Assembly: GCA_029781825.1 (NCBI GenBank)
Contig: JAKOVY010000110.1
Coordinates: 41,938 to 105,937, forward strand
DNA: 64,000 bases
Reading direction: 5' to 3'
From: Bacillota bacterium
GTDB taxonomy: Bacteria; Bacillota; Syntrophomonadia; Syntrophomonadales; DTU052
How positions within the stretch are numbered: position 1 is the stretch's first letter; each line of letters opens with the position of its first letter. Below the pieces are notes generated by a model. The model was given only the letters and a program-made list of their open reading frames with translations, did no database searches and was not told the DNA's origin. The translations under genes were made by a program, and so were the position numbers. Positions 16,572-26,926 of the stretch are shown piece by piece.

Positions 16572-17063
16572 TCAGATTTCAGGTGGTCGCTCCATCCCCC
16601 CAGCTTTTCTTGAATCCAATTCTGCGCATTCTACCTGCTCTCCCTCAATAGTGCACATTTTATCGCGCGATTTGCAGCTTATTTTCCGGGTCCGGCGTGG
16701 AATGAGGCGGCATTCGGATGAGCGCATGGCATCGGGAATTGCCAGGAATAATAAGATGAGGCAATGTCTAAAGCATTTTGAGGCCCGATTCCTTCCGCAT
16801 GTGGGCCGCAAGAATTCGGGCCAAATCATGTTGAAAGTGCGATGCGGGGGTTTTATTTTTTGGAGAAATTTTTGGGAAAGGCTTGTTTCTGAGGAAGAAT
16901 AACATTTCGCATCCTTCTCCGGGCCTCTTATCTTACCTTTCGACGCCAAGGCTGGTGCCGCCAGTTTGACTGATATATGCTGGGCGTTTATAATTCATAT
17001 TAACACTCCTGCATAACACCCGATTAGCCCAAGTAAAGTCACAATTAAAGAGAGGTGATATTC

Positions 17064-18140
17064 GTGGTTTATGCTGTGATTCTGGCCGGCGGCACAGGTG
17101 AACGGTTTTGGCCATTGTCTAGGCAGGACAACCCCAAGCAGTTCCTGCGCCTCTTCGGAGAGCAGACCATGCTGCAGCAGACGGTGTCACGAGTGGCAGA
17201 TTTGGTTGAACCGGATCATATCTATGTGGTGACTGGACAGCAGTATCATCAGCAGGTTGTGGCTCAGCTATCACAACTCCCACTGCCGAATATCATCTGT
17301 GAACCGTTTGGTCGAGATACCGCCCCTGCCATCGGCCTGGCTGCCGAGTACATTAGTCGCCGGGACCCCGTGGGAACGATGGCGGTTCTTCCAGCCGACC
17401 ATTACATATCCGATGTCCGGGGGTTTCATGAGTGCCTGGCCGCCTCCTTTGATGCCGCTGCCAGCGGGGAATGGTTGGTTACTATAGGAATCCGGCCGTC
17501 GGAACCGGCCACCGGTTATGGGTACATCCGTATGGGCAAGATCAAGGGAGAATATGCAGGCATACCCGTCTACCGCGCTCTGGAATTCAAAGAGAAGCCG
17601 GATATTGAGCGGGCGAGAAAGTACCTTAAGGAAGGCAACTATCTTTGGAACAGCGGAATGTTTATATGGAGAGTGGATCTCATCAGAAGCCTTTATATGC
17701 AGTTTCTGCCCGGCGTTGCCCGGGGGCTGGAGGCTATAGGCAAGAGCCTGGATACTCCGGACCAATCGCAGGTGCTGGTGAGGGAATACCAGAGGTTCCC
17801 TCGGATATCTGTGGATTACGGCATTTTGGAGAAATGCAGCCGGGTGCTGGTGATACCAGCGCGCTTCGACTGGGATGATGTGGGCTCCTGGACCTCCTGG
17901 CAGCAGCACCAGGCGGCGGACGAGAATGGCAATGTCCATCAGGGCCAAAGGGGTGTGTTCCTTGACACCCGGAACAGCTTGATTTACTCGCCTAAGCGGA
18001 TGGTGGCCACCCTGGGGGTGGAGGACCTGATAATTGTGAACACTGATGACTGTCTTTTGGTTTGTCACCAGGACCGGGCCCAGGAAGTCAAAAAGGTGGT
18101 AGAGGAGATGAAACAGGCCGGCTACCATGCGTTTTTATAA
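17064..18140 (+). CDS. manC: Mannose-1-phosphate guanylyltransferase
   Basis: 'VILAGGTGERFWPLSRQDNPKQFL', 'NYLWNSGMFIWR', 'DYGILEKC..VLVIPARFDWDDVGSW'. Confidence 0.9.
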   Translation: MVYAVILAGGTGERFWPLSRQDNPKQFLRLFGEQTMLQQTVSRVADLVEPDHIYVVTGQQYHQQVVAQLSQLPLPNIICEPFGRDTAPAIGLAAEYISRRDPVGTMAVLPADHYISDVRGFHECLAASFDAAASGEWLVTIGIRPSEPATGYGYIRMGKIKGEYAGIPVYRALEFKEKPDIERARKYLKEGNYLWNSGMFIWRVDLIRSLYMQFLPGVARGLEAIGKSLDTPDQSQVLVREYQRFPRISVDYGILEKCSRVLVIPARFDWDDVGSWTSWQQHQAADENGNVHQGQRGVFLDTRNSLIYSPKRMVATLGVEDLIIVNTDDCLLVCHQDRAQEVKKVVEEMKQAGYHAFL

Positions 18141-18167: not shown

Positions 18168-19208
18168 ATGATCAATGGATTCTCCGCCAAAGGTATTAAG
18201 CAGATGCTTGACTATATCAATGGTTTGCCTGAACAGCTGGAATACTGTCTGGAGAAGGATTACCGGATACCCACAGCCAGAGGGATATCCAACGTGGTTG
18301 TTGCAGGTATGGGAGGGTCGGCCATCGGAGGGGACGTGCTCCGATGCTGCCTCAACACCAGGAAGTCGGTACCGGTGCTGGTCAGCCGTGATTACCGCCT
18401 GCCGGGATTTGTCGGTCGGGATTCCCTGGTTCTGGCGGTAAGCTACTCCGGCAACACCGAAGAAACCATCAGCGCCTTTGAGGATGCGAGAGCGAAAGGT
18501 GCTCAGATAGCGGTCGTTACCACCGGGGGCCAATTGGGTTCCCTGGCTGAAAAAGCCGGGATTCCTCTCATTACTATTCCGGCCGGGCTGCCGCCCCGGT
18601 CGGCCCTGGGGTATCTTTTTTCACCACTGGCTCTGATAGCAGAGAAGGCTGGACTGGCGGATAGTATGAGTGATGAGCTCCAAGAAACGGCCGCCGTCTT
18701 GAGGGAAATCAGGGAGGAGCTTTATGCGGATGAGCCCGATGAAGCAAATCCGGCTTTTAACCTGGCTCGGGAGCTTAAGGATTGCATCCCGGTGATCTGG
18801 GCTGCCGGCTCCGATTTGGAGGTGGCGGCCATGCGCTGGAAGGGGCAGATTAACGAGAACGCCAAGGCCCCGGCTTATTACAACTGTTTTCCCGAGCTGA
18901 ATCATAATGAGTTTACCGGCCTGGAATGCCCGGAAACGCTGACCAAAAGGATAACGGTGATTATCCTGCAGGCAAGAGAAGAGGACCCGCGGATCGGCCG
19001 CCGGGTGGATATAACCCGTGAAATCCTGGGCGATAGAATCAAGAAATTTTTAACGGTTAAAGCCCGGGGCAGGTCCCGGATGGCTCAACTGTTCAGCCTG
19101 ATGTATACCGGGGATTTTGTAAGCGCGTACCTGGCTGCCATTTATGGCATCGATCCGGTTCCGGTCACCCTGATCGAAGCATTAAAGAAGCGGTTGAAAG
19201 AAAGCTGA
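18168..19208 (+). CDS. Bifunctional phosphoglucose/phosphomannose isomerase
   Basis: SIS domain 'VVAGMGGSAIGGDVLR', 'LAVSYSGNTEETIS', 'ELNHNEFTG'. Confidence 0.9.
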   Translation: MINGFSAKGIKQMLDYINGLPEQLEYCLEKDYRIPTARGISNVVVAGMGGSAIGGDVLRCCLNTRKSVPVLVSRDYRLPGFVGRDSLVLAVSYSGNTEETISAFEDARAKGAQIAVVTTGGQLGSLAEKAGIPLITIPAGLPPRSALGYLFSPLALIAEKAGLADSMSDELQETAAVLREIREELYADEPDEANPAFNLARELKDCIPVIWAAGSDLEVAAMRWKGQINENAKAPAYYNCFPELNHNEFTGLECPETLTKRITVIILQAREEDPRIGRRVDITREILGDRIKKFLTVKARGRSRMAQLFSLMYTGDFVSAYLAAIYGIDPVPVTLIEALKKRLKES

Positions 19209-19251
19209 AGAAAAATTTGCGGATTTCCAAGTGGAATATGGGAGGAATGCC

Positions 19252-20622
19252 ATGATAAGCAGGAACATCTTCCGGCAGTATGATATACGGGGCCTTGTGC
19301 CCGAGGAGTTGGACGATGATACCGTACGCAGAATTGCAAAGGCATTTGCCAGCATGGCTGCAGAAAAGGGGTTGCATAAGGTGGTCCTGGGGAGGGACAA
19401 CCGGAAATCCTCACCGCATCTGCGGGAGGTGGCGGTGGAGGCTCTTACCGATTCCGGTTGTCAGGTGATCGACCTGGGGGTCGTGGTAAGCCCGATGTTT
19501 TACTTTGCGGCCCGGCACTTGGAGATTCCGGCCGGACTAATGATCACCGCCAGCCATAACCCCGGGGAGTATAACGGGTTCAAGGTCCTGATCGGGGAGA
19601 ACACCATATACGGAGACGAAATTCAGAGGTTGTACCGCCTGGCACAGGATGGGGTGTTCACTCCCCAATCCCCTAAAGGCAAGGTAACCAATTTGGATAT
19701 CACCGAAGATTATATAAACAATATTAAACAGAGGATAAGCCTGGGACCCCGCCGTTTAAAGCTCGTTGTTGACTGCGGCAACGGAACGGCTTCCTTCTTT
19801 GCGCCCCGCCTGTTTCGAGAACTGGGATGTGAGGTGGTGGAACTCTACTGTGAATCGGACCCTGATTTCCCCAACCACCATCCCGATCCGGTCAAGGTGG
19901 AGAACTGCCAGGACCTGATAAGAGCAGTAAAAAGCGAAAAGGCCGATCTGGGCATCGGCCTGGACGGTGACGGCGACCGTCTGGGAGTAGTGGCTGAGGA
20001 TGGCCGCATTATCTGGGGAGACTTGCTGATGATTCTATACTGGAGGGAAATCCTGCCCCGCCATCCCGGCGTCGACTGCATTGTCGAGGTGAAATGCTCG
20101 CAGGCCTTGATTGATGAAATCGAAAGGCTGGGAGGGCGTCCCCTGCTGTACAAGACCGGTCACTCGCTGATTAAAGCCAAAATGAAGGAGATAGGAGCCA
20201 TCTTTACCGGTGAGATGTCAGGGCACATGTTTTTCGCCGATGAATACTACGGCTATGATGATGCTCTGTATGCCGCCGCTCGTTTGCTGCGCATACTCTC
20301 CAACACCGACCGGAGTATGAGCCAGCTCCTGGCGGATGTTCCCCAGTACTGGACCACACCGGAAATCAGGGTCAAAAGCTCGGATACTGAAAAGTTCCTG
20401 GTGGTGGAAAAGGTCGGGGAAAGATTTCGCAAAGAATACGAGGTTATCGATGTTGACGGAGCTCGCATAATATTCCCGGATGGCTGGGGTCTGGTGCGGG
20501 CGTCCAACACCGGCCCGGAGTTGATCGTGCGTTATGAAAGCCGGACCGAGGAGGGGCTGAAACGGATAGGGGATGAGCTGTGCAGTTTCCTGAGCAGTTT
20601 AGGTTTGGAGATAAAAGTGTGA
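19252..20622 (+). CDS. Phosphomannomutase/phosphoglucomutase
   Basis: 'FRQYDIRGLVPEEL', 'MITASHNPGEYNGFK', 'GLDGDGDRLGVV', 'GEMSGHMFFAD'. Confidence 0.92.
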   Translation: MISRNIFRQYDIRGLVPEELDDDTVRRIAKAFASMAAEKGLHKVVLGRDNRKSSPHLREVAVEALTDSGCQVIDLGVVVSPMFYFAARHLEIPAGLMITASHNPGEYNGFKVLIGENTIYGDEIQRLYRLAQDGVFTPQSPKGKVTNLDITEDYINNIKQRISLGPRRLKLVVDCGNGTASFFAPRLFRELGCEVVELYCESDPDFPNHHPDPVKVENCQDLIRAVKSEKADLGIGLDGDGDRLGVVAEDGRIIWGDLLMILYWREILPRHPGVDCIVEVKCSQALIDEIERLGGRPLLYKTGHSLIKAKMKEIGAIFTGEMSGHMFFADEYYGYDDALYAAARLLRILSNTDRSMSQLLADVPQYWTTPEIRVKSSDTEKFLVVEKVGERFRKEYEVIDVDGARIIFPDGWGLVRASNTGPELIVRYESRTEEGLKRIGDELCSFLSSLGLEIKV

Positions 20623-20804
20623 AACAGCCCCAAAGAGTGAGATTTTACCGCTCCTCTGGTTTGCTTGGCACCAATGATTGTTTCTAAAATAAATTTGGAA
20701 AGACATGTAAAGGAGGTGTTATACTCGGTATTCCTCGGGGTTGAGTTAAAGGTTGCATTGCTTTGTCCGGGACATGCTACTTTATAATCTTTGGGGGTGA
20801 TGTG

Positions 20805-21977
20805 ATGAATCGCTACTTGATGATTGGTACCTATGTGCCAATTAAGTGTGGGATTGCAACGTTCTCTAAGGATTTAAAGGATAGTCTTTGTTCCCGGGGT
20901 GAAGACGTAAGGATTGCGTCGGTGAGCGACTCCAAGTACCTTTATCCTTTCGAGGTGGTCTACTGGTTAAGCAAGGAGCGGCGTTCCGATTACACCGGGT
21001 GTGCCAGCTGGGTCAACAGGTCGCGTGACATCGATGTGGTTATAATTCAGCATGAGTACGGTATATATGGGGGAGAAGACGGCGAATTTATACTCGATTT
21101 TGCTGCCCGGCTCCAAAAGCCTATCATGCTTGTTGCTCATACAGTCCTTCCTCGACCATCAGCCCATCGCCAGGAGGTGTTTAATCGACTGGCGGGTTAT
21201 GCCACGGCTGTGGTGTGCATGACAAATCGGGCCCGGGACCTCTTGCTGGGACCGGTTTACAGCCTTCCGCCCAACAAGGTTCACGTTATTCCCCACGGCG
21301 TTCCCCAGTTCCAGGCCAAGGACCGGGATGTTCTAAAAGAACAGTATGGATACAAGGGACGACGCATAATTACCACCTTCGGCCTGATTGGGCCCGGGAA
21401 GGGCCTGGAAATAGGAATCAGGGCTTTGCGTCGGGTGGTTGACCGGTATCCTGACTGTCTGTATATCATTGCGGGCAGTACCCACCCCAATCTTCTTAAA
21501 CAGGAGGGGGAGAGGTACCGGGAAGAGGTTATGCGGCTGGTTTCCGAGCTGGGGATGGAAAACAATGTTGTGTTCATTAACCGCTTCCTGGATATGGAGG
21601 AATTGGGAGACTGCCTCTACATGACTGATGTATATCTAAGTCCGTATCCCACCCTTGATCAGGCTGTTTCCGGCACCCTGTCCTTTGCTGTTGGTTGCGG
21701 GAGAGCCACAGTGGCTACTCCTTATGAATACGCCCGTGAGCTTCTGGCAGAGGGGAGGGGTTTGGTGGCCAGGGATGCATCACCTGAGGCTCTGGCTGAG
21801 CTTCTGGATGCGGTACTGGGAGATCCTGAGTTCCAGGCTGCTTTGGAAGCGAAAGCCTGGGAATTTGGGAAGACCTTGACCTGGAACAGTGTTGCAGGTT
21901 ATTACAGCCGGGTAGCCGACGAGGCGATTATGCAATACGGGCTGGAACGTGTTCGGGGAGGAAAAGAACAGGCATGA
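20805..21977 (+). CDS. GT4-type glycosyltransferase
   Basis: 'MIGTYVPIKCGIATFSKDL', 'VVIIQHEYGIYGGEDGEF', 'FGLIGPGKGLEIGIRAL', 'LYIIAGSTHPN'. Confidence 0.85.
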   Translation: MNRYLMIGTYVPIKCGIATFSKDLKDSLCSRGEDVRIASVSDSKYLYPFEVVYWLSKERRSDYTGCASWVNRSRDIDVVIIQHEYGIYGGEDGEFILDFAARLQKPIMLVAHTVLPRPSAHRQEVFNRLAGYATAVVCMTNRARDLLLGPVYSLPPNKVHVIPHGVPQFQAKDRDVLKEQYGYKGRRIITTFGLIGPGKGLEIGIRALRRVVDRYPDCLYIIAGSTHPNLLKQEGERYREEVMRLVSELGMENNVVFINRFLDMEELGDCLYMTDVYLSPYPTLDQAVSGTLSFAVGCGRATVATPYEYARELLAEGRGLVARDASPEALAELLDAVLGDPEFQAALEAKAWEFGKTLTWNSVAGYYSRVADEAIMQYGLERVRGGKEQA

Positions 21978-22969
21978 ACTACAGCCATTTGGCGCGCCTG
22001 ACCTGTGATTACGGTATAATCCAGTTTGCGCCTCACGGCGAGCCCGATATAAACAGCGGGTGTACGACTGATGACAACGCCCGGGCCTTGCTGGTGGCGC
22101 TGAATATGGAGGGCTCTCAGCGTGAAGAATATGCCAGCCTTTACTGCGAGGCGCTGCAGAAAGCGTGGCGCCGGGGTGAGGGATGGCGCAACTGGTGGCT
22201 CCCCAACCGGGGATATGTCACCGATCTGGATTCGGAGGACAGCCAGGGCCGAGCCTTTATGGCCTGCTGTTTTGGGGCTGTTTCGGGATTGCCGGGGGTG
22301 TCGAAAGCCTGCCGGGAAATGGCTGCCGATGCCCTGTCGTTTATTGAGACTTTGGAGTTTCCTCGAAGCAATGCTTACGTCTTAATCGGTTGTACGGTCC
22401 TCGCCCGTGAATTGCCGGAGGATGACCGCCGGATATCCGGCATAATCCAACGTTGTGTTGAGCAGTTGACCGGCCTCTACCAGCGATATAATTCGCCCGG
22501 GTGGAGGTGGTTTGAGGACCGCATGACTTACTGCAATGCCATTCTCCCCCACGCCCTTTTTTCCTATTGCGGCATCAAGGCAGACAAGAAAGTGCAGGGT
22601 ATAGCCCGGGATTCACTGATGTTTCTGGGGGACAGCCTGCTGGCGAAGGGATACTTTACCCCTGTAGGTAACCGAGGGTGGTGGACAAAGGGCAAAAAGA
22701 TACCGCTTTTTGACCAGCAGCCGGTGGAAGCCGGTTCTATGATATTGGCCTGCCGCGAGGCTTTTCGCGTAACGGGGCAGAAGGACTTTCAATCCATGAT
22801 GGAGATCATCTGGGAGTGGTATCTGGGGAAAAACATCCATGATCTGCCCCTGATCAATTCTGAAACCGGGGGCTGTCACGATGGGTTAACCCCCGACGGA
22901 TTAAATCCCAACCAGGGAGCCGAGGCCTTGGTAACCATGCTGTTGTCAAATCAATTGCTGCATTCCTAA
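21974..22969 (+). CDS. Glycan-active protein of probable (alpha/alpha) toroid fold, translationally coupled to GT4
   Basis: 4-nt overlap with GT4; 'CTTDDNARALLVAL', 'GWRNWWLPN', helical repeats; family assignment uncertain. Confidence 0.55.
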   Translation: MNYSHLARLTCDYGIIQFAPHGEPDINSGCTTDDNARALLVALNMEGSQREEYASLYCEALQKAWRRGEGWRNWWLPNRGYVTDLDSEDSQGRAFMACCFGAVSGLPGVSKACREMAADALSFIETLEFPRSNAYVLIGCTVLARELPEDDRRISGIIQRCVEQLTGLYQRYNSPGWRWFEDRMTYCNAILPHALFSYCGIKADKKVQGIARDSLMFLGDSLLAKGYFTPVGNRGWWTKGKKIPLFDQQPVEAGSMILACREAFRVTGQKDFQSMMEIIWEWYLGKNIHDLPLINSETGGCHDGLTPDGLNPNQGAEALVTMLLSNQLLHS

Positions 22970-22979
22970 TCGGTTTATA

Positions 22980-25900
22980 TTATTCGCTTTCATAAACTGC
23001 TCCCCGGTATTTGCGTCTTATTTCTTCGGGGAGCAGGTCTCCAACCCTGCACGTTGCCATGCAGAGATGGGAGTCGGCGGCACCGTAGTATACCAGGAGC
23101 TCATCATCTTCGTACAGTAAATCTTTGTCTTCAGCCGGAACCGCTCCGCAGGTGAAGACTACGTTGCACACCCAGGCTTTGCCGGGAATGCCTATTTCAC
23201 ATTCCGTTTCGGGCGAAAGCACGGGATTGGGAGAACGGTAGAGAAGGCGTTCCGGATCGCGGGCATCAACCAGCATGACTCCCAGGCGATATACCCGATC
23301 CCTGTCCACGCCGTGGTAAATCATAAGCCACCCAAAGTCCGTTTTCAAGGGCTGGGTACCGGCACCGATCTTGACCGAATCCCACATACGCCCGGAACGG
23401 GGCCCCATGATAATGGAATGTCTTCCCCGAGGTGCCGGGAACTTGAGTTCATCCAGGTACGACACCCAGATACCGGGTTCTATGCGATGGTATATGACAT
23501 AGCGGCCTTTGATCTTCTCGGGAAAGAGAATCGCATCCTTATCCCATACATCTTCAAAGGCCAGGCCTTTCCTCTCCCACCGGTCGAACCTGCGGTTGAG
23601 GAAATCGTCAAGGGAGATGGCGGCGGCTGATACCTGAGCGATAACACCATCATAGGCCGTATACATCATATAGATGTAACCGTCGATTACCACGACCCGG
23701 GGGTCTTCAACCCCCTTTTTCTCCTTTGGACCCAGCGGGGTGTATACGGGGTATGGCAGTCGCTCCAGTACCCGGTAACCATCGGTTATCGCCAGACCTA
23801 TCCGGGATATTTCATCATCTCCATACGCCCGGTAAAGGATATAAACCCGGTCTTTAATGCGCAGGGAAGCGGCATTCAAAACATAGCGCGACTCCCAGAA
23901 ATGCTCTTTGATAGGTGATAATATCGGATTTCCCGGGTAGCGAACCAGGCTCTTGGTCGGGGGGAACGGATAGGTATCCTGGGAGACTGCGACCACATTC
24001 TCAGCTGTTGCTCCCAGCACCGCGGTCAGCAGATCCTCATTGGAACGGCCTTCGCCCACCAGTTGAATGGCCTGTTCATCAACCACCGCAGTGTCATAAC
24101 CAAGGGAGGAAAAGATCTCCTCCAGCAGGTCATGGTTAAACCATCGCTCTTCCACATGGCTGGACAGAGGGGTGGGCAATCCCTGGCCGCCTTTGTAGCT
24201 GTAGCTGGCCCAGGTCCAGGCGGAACAGGGAAGGAAGGTCCCATCGGCCAAGGTCTGGCTCAGCCCATAGGATTGCACCATCAGCTCCAGCATTTTGGCG
24301 GCGGACATCCGGCCGGAAGCCTTTAACCTGGCGACCAGTGCCTCAAAAAATCCGACCAGCAGACGGTGATTGGTGTTCTCCATAATATTGTTGACAGAGA
24401 AGGTGCCGGCCCGGTACCAACCTGCCAGGGAATTGCCGATCTTATCCCCCAGATTCCTGCGTTCGCGGACATAGATTCGCCATAAACGCGAGTAGTTGAC
24501 GGATATGGCTGCCTGGCGGACAACCGACAGGCAGTAACGGAGCCGGGGGTACCGACCGCCCACTCCTTTACTGAGCGGACTGGCCAATATCCGAGCTACC
24601 AGTATATTAAAGTTGGAGGTGGTGAGCAGCCGATACGAACCGTGCATGTCCTGATTTCCCAGGATCAGCGGTTTAAGATCAACCTCCTCCATATCTTCAG
24701 GACTTAAGTTTTCAAGAAGCCACTCCTGGGTCTGTTCGATGAACAGCTGGTTTTCCATCAGACCGGCCAGGCTCACGGCATCTCTTACATCCATATCGGC
24801 CACCAGTTTTTGGACATCATGATAACCCCGGGAGATGATCAGGTTCGAGGCGCGAAACTTAATGAGCATCTCCCGCAGGACATCGCTTTTGACCGCCAAT
24901 ACCCGGGGGAATGAAAAGAGATCGAAAATACCTTTGAGAAGCTGGTCAATCCCTTCTTCAGTGTAGAGATCACCAGGAAGGATTTCTTCCAGTATGTTTT
25001 CCAGGTCAGCCATAAACCCGGCCACACCGGCGACCAGTGCGCGTGAGTCCGCATCGCCGGGAAGGTTCAGCCCCTCGTGAACAAACTTGTTGAAACGGTC
25101 TTGATATCGGTTTTGCAATCGGGTAAATACTTCTTCGATCCGAACGGTCGCATTGCCGGGGCCGACAATGGTCTTGGGAAGTATAACCGGAACCCCGGGG
25201 ATGAATTCCATATAATGGGCCGGTACAATTACCGGTCGGGTATCAAGAGCCGCTTGCCGCCAATCCTCGGATAATCCTTCGCTCAGCATGTAGAACGCCT
25301 GTCTTTGCAGTTCTCTGGCCGCCTCGACCGCACCCGGCGGAAATGAATATTGCTCAATCGGGAGTTTATCCGGGGCTGTGAATGTGCCTGCGGTTGTTTC
25401 GGCCAAAAAACCGGCCATACGCCCGTTAAAGAGGGAAGTCAGGCTGATAAGAAGGTCATCAACCGGTATTTCCTTTTTAAAGGCATATGCCAGCAGGTAA
25501 TTATTGACCACGGCGGCCCACAGATGCGGCCCAAAGCTGAAGCGGCTGGTATAGAATTGAACTTCGTCTTTTAAGTGTTCGGCAATGTCCGAGGGGAGCA
25601 GGGAATCCAACAGATTACCGTATTGACTGCACCCGCTTTTGAAGGACCCGACCAGGTCAATGAATGAAAAAGCCGGATTCATTGGGACATCAGAAACGAA
25701 AGGCCGGCCGAAAACATCCAGGTGCTTTAGGATTTGAGGACGGTTTGACCAGTACTTATCATCCCGGGTTATGCACTCAAAAAGTGACAGGGCGTTATCC
25801 TTGAAGACAAGGTCCACCTTCTCCCGGGAAGGCCGCGCCAGTTTACTTTCAAGCTTTACCTCGCAGACGGCTTTGTTCCAACGCAGGGCTCGGGTTATGA

Positions 25901-26564
25901 GCCAGGGATCGATACCGTAGCCTCTAGTAGTATCAGTCCACAGTCTGATATCCTGGCAGTAGTTTTCCAGGAGGTCGTGGCTAACCGCATAAATTCCGCT
26001 GGTGGGATCGGTAACCCGAAAACCGTAAAACACTTCGAGAAGCGGTCCGGTAAAAAGCACGCCTACCGGGTCTTCCAGCTGATGTCGTTGAAAACATCCC
26101 AGAGCCAGGTCATAGTCTTTTTGAATCGGCAGAGCCAACCTCTTTACCCAATCCGGGCGGAAGCCCCGCCCATGTTCCTGCTTGAGATCTGCAGCCAGCA
26201 CTATCAAATCTGCTTCCAGGTAATTGGCGATCTCAATTAAGGCTCTGATGCTGGCGCCCCGGCCATTAATCCCCGGCGCCAATACGTATTCAAAATGCGG
26301 AATAGGAAGGTTTAATCTTTTAATGGCTTCCAATATATCACTGCCGGCAGGATCTCCGATACAGGCGATCATGGTGTTGGGGGATGGCAAGTTTTCCGGG
26401 TTGCTGCACAAAAGCTGCAGCATTTCCAGGAGCGAGGTCTTCTCGTTAAAAAATGGTATACCAACTACTGTGTCAATATGAGCAAATCCCTCGAGGAGGG
26501 GAATCAATTCGCGGACGGTCTCGCTGAAGTGCTTTTCAAAGCTGTTTAAGCTATTGCTGCACAT
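22980..26564 (-). CDS. Multidomain protein: N-terminal GT-A glycosyltransferase, ~550-aa middle region, C-terminal GH130 (mannoside phosphorylase-type) domain
   Basis: N-term 'VVGIPFFNEKTSLLEML...LIVLAADLKQEHG'; C-term 'RYPGNPILSP..FWESRYVLNAA', 'EDPRVVVIDGYIYMMYTAYDG', 'IYHGVDRDRVYRLGVMLVD' typical of GH130. Confidence 0.85.
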   Translation of the reverse strand: MCSNSLNSFEKHFSETVRELIPLLEGFAHIDTVVGIPFFNEKTSLLEMLQLLCSNPENLPSPNTMIACIGDPAGSDILEAIKRLNLPIPHFEYVLAPGINGRGASIRALIEIANYLEADLIVLAADLKQEHGRGFRPDWVKRLALPIQKDYDLALGCFQRHQLEDPVGVLFTGPLLEVFYGFRVTDPTSGIYAVSHDLLENYCQDIRLWTDTTRGYGIDPWLITRALRWNKAVCEVKLESKLARPSREKVDLVFKDNALSLFECITRDDKYWSNRPQILKHLDVFGRPFVSDVPMNPAFSFIDLVGSFKSGCSQYGNLLDSLLPSDIAEHLKDEVQFYTSRFSFGPHLWAAVVNNYLLAYAFKKEIPVDDLLISLTSLFNGRMAGFLAETTAGTFTAPDKLPIEQYSFPPGAVEAARELQRQAFYMLSEGLSEDWRQAALDTRPVIVPAHYMEFIPGVPVILPKTIVGPGNATVRIEEVFTRLQNRYQDRFNKFVHEGLNLPGDADSRALVAGVAGFMADLENILEEILPGDLYTEEGIDQLLKGIFDLFSFPRVLAVKSDVLREMLIKFRASNLIISRGYHDVQKLVADMDVRDAVSLAGLMENQLFIEQTQEWLLENLSPEDMEEVDLKPLILGNQDMHGSYRLLTTSNFNILVARILASPLSKGVGGRYPRLRYCLSVVRQAAISVNYSRLWRIYVRERRNLGDKIGNSLAGWYRAGTFSVNNIMENTNHRLLVGFFEALVARLKASGRMSAAKMLELMVQSYGLSQTLADGTFLPCSAWTWASYSYKGGQGLPTPLSSHVEERWFNHDLLEEIFSSLGYDTAVVDEQAIQLVGEGRSNEDLLTAVLGATAENVVAVSQDTYPFPPTKSLVRYPGNPILSPIKEHFWESRYVLNAASLRIKDRVYILYRAYGDDEISRIGLAITDGYRVLERLPYPVYTPLGPKEKKGVEDPRVVVIDGYIYMMYTAYDGVIAQVSAAAISLDDFLNRRFDRWERKGLAFEDVWDKDAILFPEKIKGRYVIYHRIEPGIWVSYLDELKFPAPRGRHSIIMGPRSGRMWDSVKIGAGTQPLKTDFGWLMIYHGVDRDRVYRLGVMLVDARDPERLLYRSPNPVLSPETECEIGIPGKAWVCNVVFTCGAVPAEDKDLLYEDDELLVYYGAADSHLCMATCRVGDLLPEEIRRKYRGAVYESE

Positions 26565-26926
26565 AGCAAACCTCCTTGAAGCACCTGCTGTGTTATGAGA
26601 TTACGTGTTTAAACTTTCCATTATTATAGTTAAATTTAACGGGCTTGGAAAGGCCGCCCAAGGGAGTTTAGGCCGATTTTTCAAGATTCTTGACTTTAGA
26701 TATCGGGTTTCACCTCCAATAAAGCAGGAACTCTACCATAGTTACGTTTCTCCAGGATTGTCTAGAAATGGCGCGCTCAGTTGCTTTTAAGCCGGCGGAA
26801 ATCTATAATTAAAGCAGTTTGAGTGCTAGAGGACATGCCAATTTGGCACGGTCAGCCACATATTAGGACGATCAATTGTGGGGCACCAAATTTCGCAGAT
26901 ACAATTTGAAACTGTTTTAAGGAGGT

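Follow-up and report, generated by a model that had tools for sequence, protein, structure and literature searches.

We analyzed a window of 64,000 nucleotides of Bacillota DNA (the whole stretch given above) and one gene in it, which encodes a fusion of three parts. The region is a single ORF of 1194 amino acids with an ATG start (Table 1). An earlier reading made from the letters alone (the sequence-only reading) had placed one ORF at 22980-26564, which proved exact; the strand is the minus strand, and the plus-strand frame across the same positions is broken by many stops. The ORF is real and has its own Shine-Dalgarno sequence. A chance ORF or an assembly artefact was rejected, because the same fusion is found in named loci of many genera. 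The highest 19-residue Kyte-Doolittle mean of the protein is 1.36, which is below transmembrane strength, and the protein is presumably located in the cytoplasm.

Table 1. Positions of the fusion gene, its parts and its neighbors in the window
Feature	Position	Strand	Remark
Mannose-1-phosphate guanylyltransferase (GMP)	17055..18140	+	
Bifunctional phosphoglucose/phosphomannose isomerase (PGI/PMI)	18168..19208	+	
Phosphomannomutase/phosphoglucomutase (PMM)	19231..20622	+	
GT4 glycosyltransferase	20763..21977	+	
331-aa partner	21974..22969	+	probable distant (α/α)-type carbohydrate-enzyme relative
Fusion gene, 1194 aa	22980..26564	-	GT78-like GT-A module, unassigned helical domain, GH130
GH130 domain, residues 869-1194	22983..23960	-	
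Glu953-Asp954, candidate catalytic acid motif of GH130	23703..23708	-	both invariant, 76/76 copies; role from PMC4599007
Unassigned middle domain, about residues 441-868	23961..25244	-	mostly helical, with short β hairpins
Helical tail of GT module, about residues 291-440	25245..25694	-	MGS alignment ~442 columns; part also in GT-only proteins L100, L102, L103
GT-A core, residues 25-290	25695..26492	-	Foldseek to 2y4j/2bo7 (mannosylglycerate synthase) and GpgS; weak PF00535
Asp219 of YGID	25908..25910	-	D in 64/70
Residues 124-126, AAD, in place of the DXD motif	26187..26195	-	DSD in GT-only relatives
Shine-Dalgarno AAGGAGG	26571..26577	-	6 bases 5' of the fusion ATG
Promoter-like site TTTCCA-17-TATAAT	26623..26651	-	consensus match only; such sites in the region about as frequent as shuffled expectation

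The layout in the window is convergent, with the GMP, PGI/PMI, PMM, GT4 and 331-aa genes on the plus strand and the fusion on the minus strand. Among the 35 loci that offer 5 kb or more of flank to the left and right of the fusion, GT4 was found nearby in 33, the 331-aa partner in 30 and PMM and GMP in 23 each; at least one mannose-type gene (GT4, PMM, GMP or similar) is present in 34 of the 35. In Desulfotomaculaceae/Peptococcaceae loci GT4 and the 331-aa domain are themselves fused. The 331-aa partner has no Pfam match of its own, and the weak matches of its family (C5-epimerase C-terminus, GH88, GH127, GH76 and PDB 7tem) suggest that it is probably an (α/α)-type sugar enzyme. Some fusion loci also hold a stand-alone GH130, or a GH5 close to endo-mannanase/mannosidase structures. 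Others carry a GT4 fused to a mannose-6-phosphate isomerase cupin, for example L034:10736-12100 (minus strand); members of the cluster of the L034 gene lie near the fusion in 21 loci, and the shorter ones may lack the cupin.

As an enzyme the fusion is a multi-domain variant of a kind already known, and it is widely distributed. Homologues were found in 56 of 61 related genomes, many of them full-length, with two paralogues in several genomes, and the GT domain is present in 39 of the 40 genomes of the class. Across the phylum a profile of the middle domain matched 58 of 399 genomes (4 of the 58 by the GT tail only), and no middle domain without its GT and GH130 partners was found among the genomes and loci searched. 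In the 79 named loci, setting aside copies truncated at a contig end or interrupted by a frameshift, every copy has all three parts, and their order does not change. The genera include Syntrophomonas, Pelotomaculum, Syntrophaceticus, Tepidanaerobacter and Fervidicola; near-identical and near copies occur in Syntrophothermus- and Syntrophomonadaceae-labelled loci, which makes the host a Firmicute of the syntrophic type. One contig labelled Actinobacteria (L031) carries a fusion gene that falls tightly within a Peptococcaceae group and is probably a mislabelled bin. A search of the open literature, with most subscription journals outside it, gave no published description of the three-part fusion, which appears to be undescribed there. 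A three-part carbohydrate enzyme that includes a domain of no known fold is thus carried by almost all genomes sampled from one bacterial class.

The GH130 domain and the middle domain

The only domain that Pfam reported on the fusion protein is GH130 (PF04041, residues 889-1177, E 3e-45, 154.9 bits against a cut-off of 26). The top NCBIfam model for this part is the β-1,2-mannobiose phosphorylase NF052550, with 237 bits and thus below its cut-off of 450; by sequence the domain is best placed as a relative of that enzyme, outside the equivalog. The nearest PDB relatives are 7fip, a β-1,2-mannobiose phosphorylase (E 3e-55), and 9fj8, a 1,2-β-oligomannan phosphorylase, and both the PDB relatives and the alignment put the domain clearly nearer to β-1,2 than to β-1,4 enzymes. 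The EDPR, KDA, HR, IG, YHG/YHA and VYRLG motifs are conserved with the Thermoanaerobacter enzymes. Twelve residues are invariant in all 76 fusion copies (N897, R912, E953, D954, R956, K1009, H1026, R1027, K1065, Y1083, H1084 and Y1092). They include the candidate catalytic Asp (D954) and the basic residues of the phosphate site (R1027, K1065 and H1084), with roles mapped by alignment and PMC4599007 rather than by structure. In GH130 hydrolases these basic residues are replaced by Glu, and a lysine marks β-1,2 specificity (PMC4599007). In both Thermoanaerobacter enzymes the lysine of the NKDA motif aligns with K1009, which is tentatively taken to be this determinant, the reader of the O2 of the +1 mannose; it would correspond to K199 of BT3780. 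The sequence-only reading had described a complete GH130 domain and had named the Thermoanaerobacter β-1,2-mannoside phosphorylases as examples of the family; the domain is complete, and its nearest relatives are of the β-1,2 type. No second GH130 turned up in the host genome. The strongest inference that can be drawn is that this GH130 would be a working phosphorylase, making or using mannose 1-phosphate (Man-1-P) beside an enzyme that converts Man-1-P to GDP-mannose.

The middle domain was called novel in the same reading, and all comparisons agree with this. Pfam gave no family for 16 middle-domain homologues, and a PDB profile search gave no match (best E 0.93). An AlphaFold model of residues 291-868, which include the middle domain, is confident (pLDDT 84.8), and no known fold was recognised by Foldseek of the middle-domain model against PDB (best E 0.2) or BFVD (best E 0.06); among the PDB matches listed there is no fold match to the (α/α)6 enzymes GH189, GH144 and GH162. 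Kinship with the neighboring 331-aa family was also considered and ruled out, with an hhalign probability of 0.2%. Seven residues of the domain (E453, R594, W615, W785, E805, W808 and F809) are invariant in all 76 copies. In the loop proposed below, this domain of ~430 amino acids would most likely act on the mannan chain itself, by binding it or by a transfer step.

The N-terminal module and the wear of its metal site

At the sequence level there is no more than a low-scoring Pfam match to GT2 (E 0.003). An AlphaFold2 model of residues 1-868, with 70 homologues as input, has a mean pLDDT of 85.6, and the best eight Foldseek matches in PDB are all mannosylglycerate synthase (MGS), a GDP-mannose-using GT78 enzyme (E ~1e-11, probability 1.00, TM-score up to 0.71 by target length, ~442 columns). 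Hyaluronan synthase and glucosyl-3-phosphoglycerate synthases are included in the later matches. The GT-A type fold claimed earlier is thus found in the predicted model, where it is of the GT78 kind, and the module probably binds GDP-mannose. Since the alignment spans nearly the whole of the target, the module extends over about residues 28-440, and the unassigned middle is therefore ~441-868 and not the ~550 residues (~300-860) first proposed: residues ~291-440 align to the C-terminal part of MGS and are partly present in GT-only relatives. Such stand-alone GT proteins of other Firmicutes have ~435-460 amino acids. Three of them have DSD and the metal His (L102:5311-6696 and L103:2868-4190 on the plus strand, L100:852-2153 on the minus strand), and in L102 and L103 the next gene resembles an ABC sugar-binding protein.

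In MGS the metal is bound by a His together with the second Asp of the DXD motif, and equivalent residues occur in GpgS (PMC2581804). DSD and the metal His are kept in the GT-only relatives, while in the window protein the motif reads AAD and the His is missing from its aligned position, so that only the second Asp of the GT78 metal motif is left. This Asp (D126) is present in 51 of 70 fusions. At the first DXD position the 70 fusions have Ala in 32 and Glu in 10, and the metal His is missing in 30 of the 31 rows with AAD. In the tree EAD is found in the early branches, AAD predominates in the large clade of the window, and a clade with full support, made up of 18 Syntrophomonas-type copies, has lost D126; the direction of these changes is inferred, because the tree is midpoint-rooted. 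The family thus offers a natural series in which the GT metal site wears stepwise with the fused phosphorylase intact.

A decaying GT half was considered and ruled out. The other pocket positions are retained (G35, P37, E41, D71, GRG 101-103 and D219), and dN/dS is 0.065-0.114 for the GT core; these two observations show that the module is not rotting. By alignment, D219 is presumably the counterpart of the Glu/Asp that follows WG/YG and is conserved in both MGS and GpgS. For the GT tail dN/dS is 0.125-0.175, for the middle domain 0.085-0.139 and for GH130 0.029-0.067, with some pairs near saturation at synonymous sites, and every module is under purifying selection (0.03-0.18). Judged by its residues, the GT module is not an ordinary metal-dependent transferase. 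Of the two end domains in which catalytic residues were to be looked for, GH130 has its conserved ones in every copy and GT has a worn metal motif, and their nearest CAZy relatives are the β-1,2 phosphorylases for GH130 (below the NF052550 cut-off) and, by fold, GT78 for GT.

Further paralogues were seen in some hosts. A Syntrophomonas-type second paralogue (L068, L074, L080, L083, L087, L090 and other loci) often follows directly after an oligoendopeptidase F gene; its DXD is gone, often with a His still to be seen close to where the metal His aligns, and some genomes hold both paralogues. One gene cluster of a Pelotomaculum MAG carries two fusion genes on the plus strand (L040:7128-10736 and L040:13192-16776), of which the second is divergent, with PAD instead of AAD, and is followed by manA.

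A proposed mannose loop, its alternatives and known systems

The explanation that we favor, with about even chances of being correct, is that the fusion is a cytoplasmic three-module enzyme of an intracellular loop between β-1,2-mannan (oligomannoside) and GDP-mannose. The GH130 propeller would reversibly phosphorolyse terminal β-1,2-mannosyl residues to α-mannose 1-phosphate, which the guanylyltransferase encoded next door would convert to GDP-mannose. With Man-1-P in excess the reaction could be reversed, and the chains would be lengthened by GH130 itself. The N-terminal module of the MGS type would bind GDP-mannose. It may still attach a priming mannose in members that branch early; in the lineage of the window, with the reduced metal site, it might prime slowly, sense GDP-mannose or hold the acceptor. 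The analysis shows the architecture and its conservation, the invariant GH130 residues, the erosion of the GT metal motif and the gene neighborhood; the β-1,2 linkage, the direction of flow, the location in the cytoplasm and the roles of the GT and middle modules are what we infer. We know of no β-1,2-mannan from the host organisms. If the substrate is indeed β-1,2-mannan, these syntrophic anaerobes would carry a hidden mannan metabolism.

The best-known GT78 enzyme is retaining and gives an α-mannoside product. The GT module alone would therefore not make the β bond that GH130 cuts, and priming or sensing suits it better than the lengthening of chains; against the mannan loop it must be said that a GT78-type α-mannoside would not be a GH130 substrate. 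The sequence-only reading had proposed a protein that both builds and phosphorolyses a mannan. The phosphorylase-type GH130, the GDP-mannose-enzyme fold and the mannose context agree with this, yet an ordinary synthase half is not supported, given the missing first DXD Asp and metal His and the loss of D126 in the Syntrophomonas clade. A role in storage is possible. The host genome (90.6% complete) contains glgA, the glycogen synthase gene, and no glycogen phosphorylase (GT35) was found in four genomes of the host genus, which is a hint and not evidence. A reserve polymer proved by lack of glycogen genes is untenable: with glgA present, carbohydrate storage can be explained without a mannan reserve.

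One alternative stays close to the idea of building and phosphorolysis and takes the fusion as a CGS-like machine. The synthase, middle and phosphorylase parts stand in the CGS order and are always fused, and in CGS the C-terminal GH94 adjusts chain length while the middle domain cyclises (PMC10834661). Invariant E453, R594 and E805 and the selection on the GT module are also in its favor, but the worn metal site of the window protein and of the 18-row clade, a fold whose known members are retaining, and a middle domain with no (α/α)6 match among those listed make it unlikely, and CGS is a membrane protein whereas the fusion has no membrane segment. A bolder proposal is that the middle is a new-fold carbohydrate-active catalytic domain (transglycosylase, cyclase or branching-type) and that the whole protein is a β-1,2-mannan synthase-processor-phosphorylase, which keeps an intracellular mannan pool across anaerobic Firmicutes as the bacterial counterpart of Leishmania mannogen; this we consider unlikely.

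It may also be that another β-mannoside is salvaged, for example imported β-1,4- or mixed-linkage oligosaccharides, and that the GT-like and middle parts do no more than bind the substrate. Linkage specificity does vary among GH130 members (PMC8950772, PMC4599007), and GH5 mannanase/mannosidase-like genes lie near some copies. This option is made quite improbable by the closeness of GH130 to the β-1,2 enzymes, and by host lineages that are mostly syntrophs and not sugar users; a non-systematic look at the surroundings of inspected copies also revealed no sugar importer. Least credible is a compatible-solute system, in which the GT product is mannosylglycerate or another small mannoside of that kind, to be extended or recycled by GH130. 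Here the worn metal site of the fusions and the mismatch between an α product and a β substrate weigh against the top fold match to MGS, the glucosyl-3-phosphoglycerate synthases lower down and the GT-only relatives with an intact motif; no mannosyl-3-phosphoglycerate phosphatase was recognised among the neighbors examined, and we find this option very improbable.

By comparing the fusion with known systems, its parts can be set in context. The MGS of Rhodothermus marinus (GT78, 2bo4/2y4j) has the same fold as residues ~28-440, with the helical tail matched as well, and shares the conserved PxxNE-like, GRG and YGID stretches; identity is only ~15%, and the fusion differs by the Ala for the first DXD Asp, the lack of the metal His and its two further domains. 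With CGS the likeness is in functional order alone, a transferase, a processing domain and a phosphorylase that could trim β-1,2 chains. No family is common to the two in any part, and the fusion is a soluble protein of mannose rather than glucose with a middle domain of a different fold. To our knowledge the GT108 mannogen transferase-phosphorylases of Leishmania have no GT-A or middle domain. They are eukaryotic and belong to another CAZy family, and resemble the fusion in a GH130-like propeller, which acts on β-1,2-mannan through Man-1-P (PMC8950772). Among GH130 enzymes of solved structure the nearest are Teth514_1788 and Teth514_1789, the 1,2-β-oligomannan and β-1,2-mannobiose phosphorylases of Thermoanaerobacter sp. 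X-514, and the alignment with them runs the full length of the domain. These are stand-alone proteins of ~34-36 kDa, while in the fusion GH130 is the last quarter of 1194 amino acids, but their GDP-mannose gene neighborhood is similar: the pair lies in a cluster of GH130, GMP, GT4 and GH5, which was read as Man-1-P/GDP-mannose salvage with no source of β-1,2-mannan known in 2014 (PMC4264767). If the fusion acts on β-1,2-mannan, it would be a testable candidate for the origin of the substrate of these phosphorylases.
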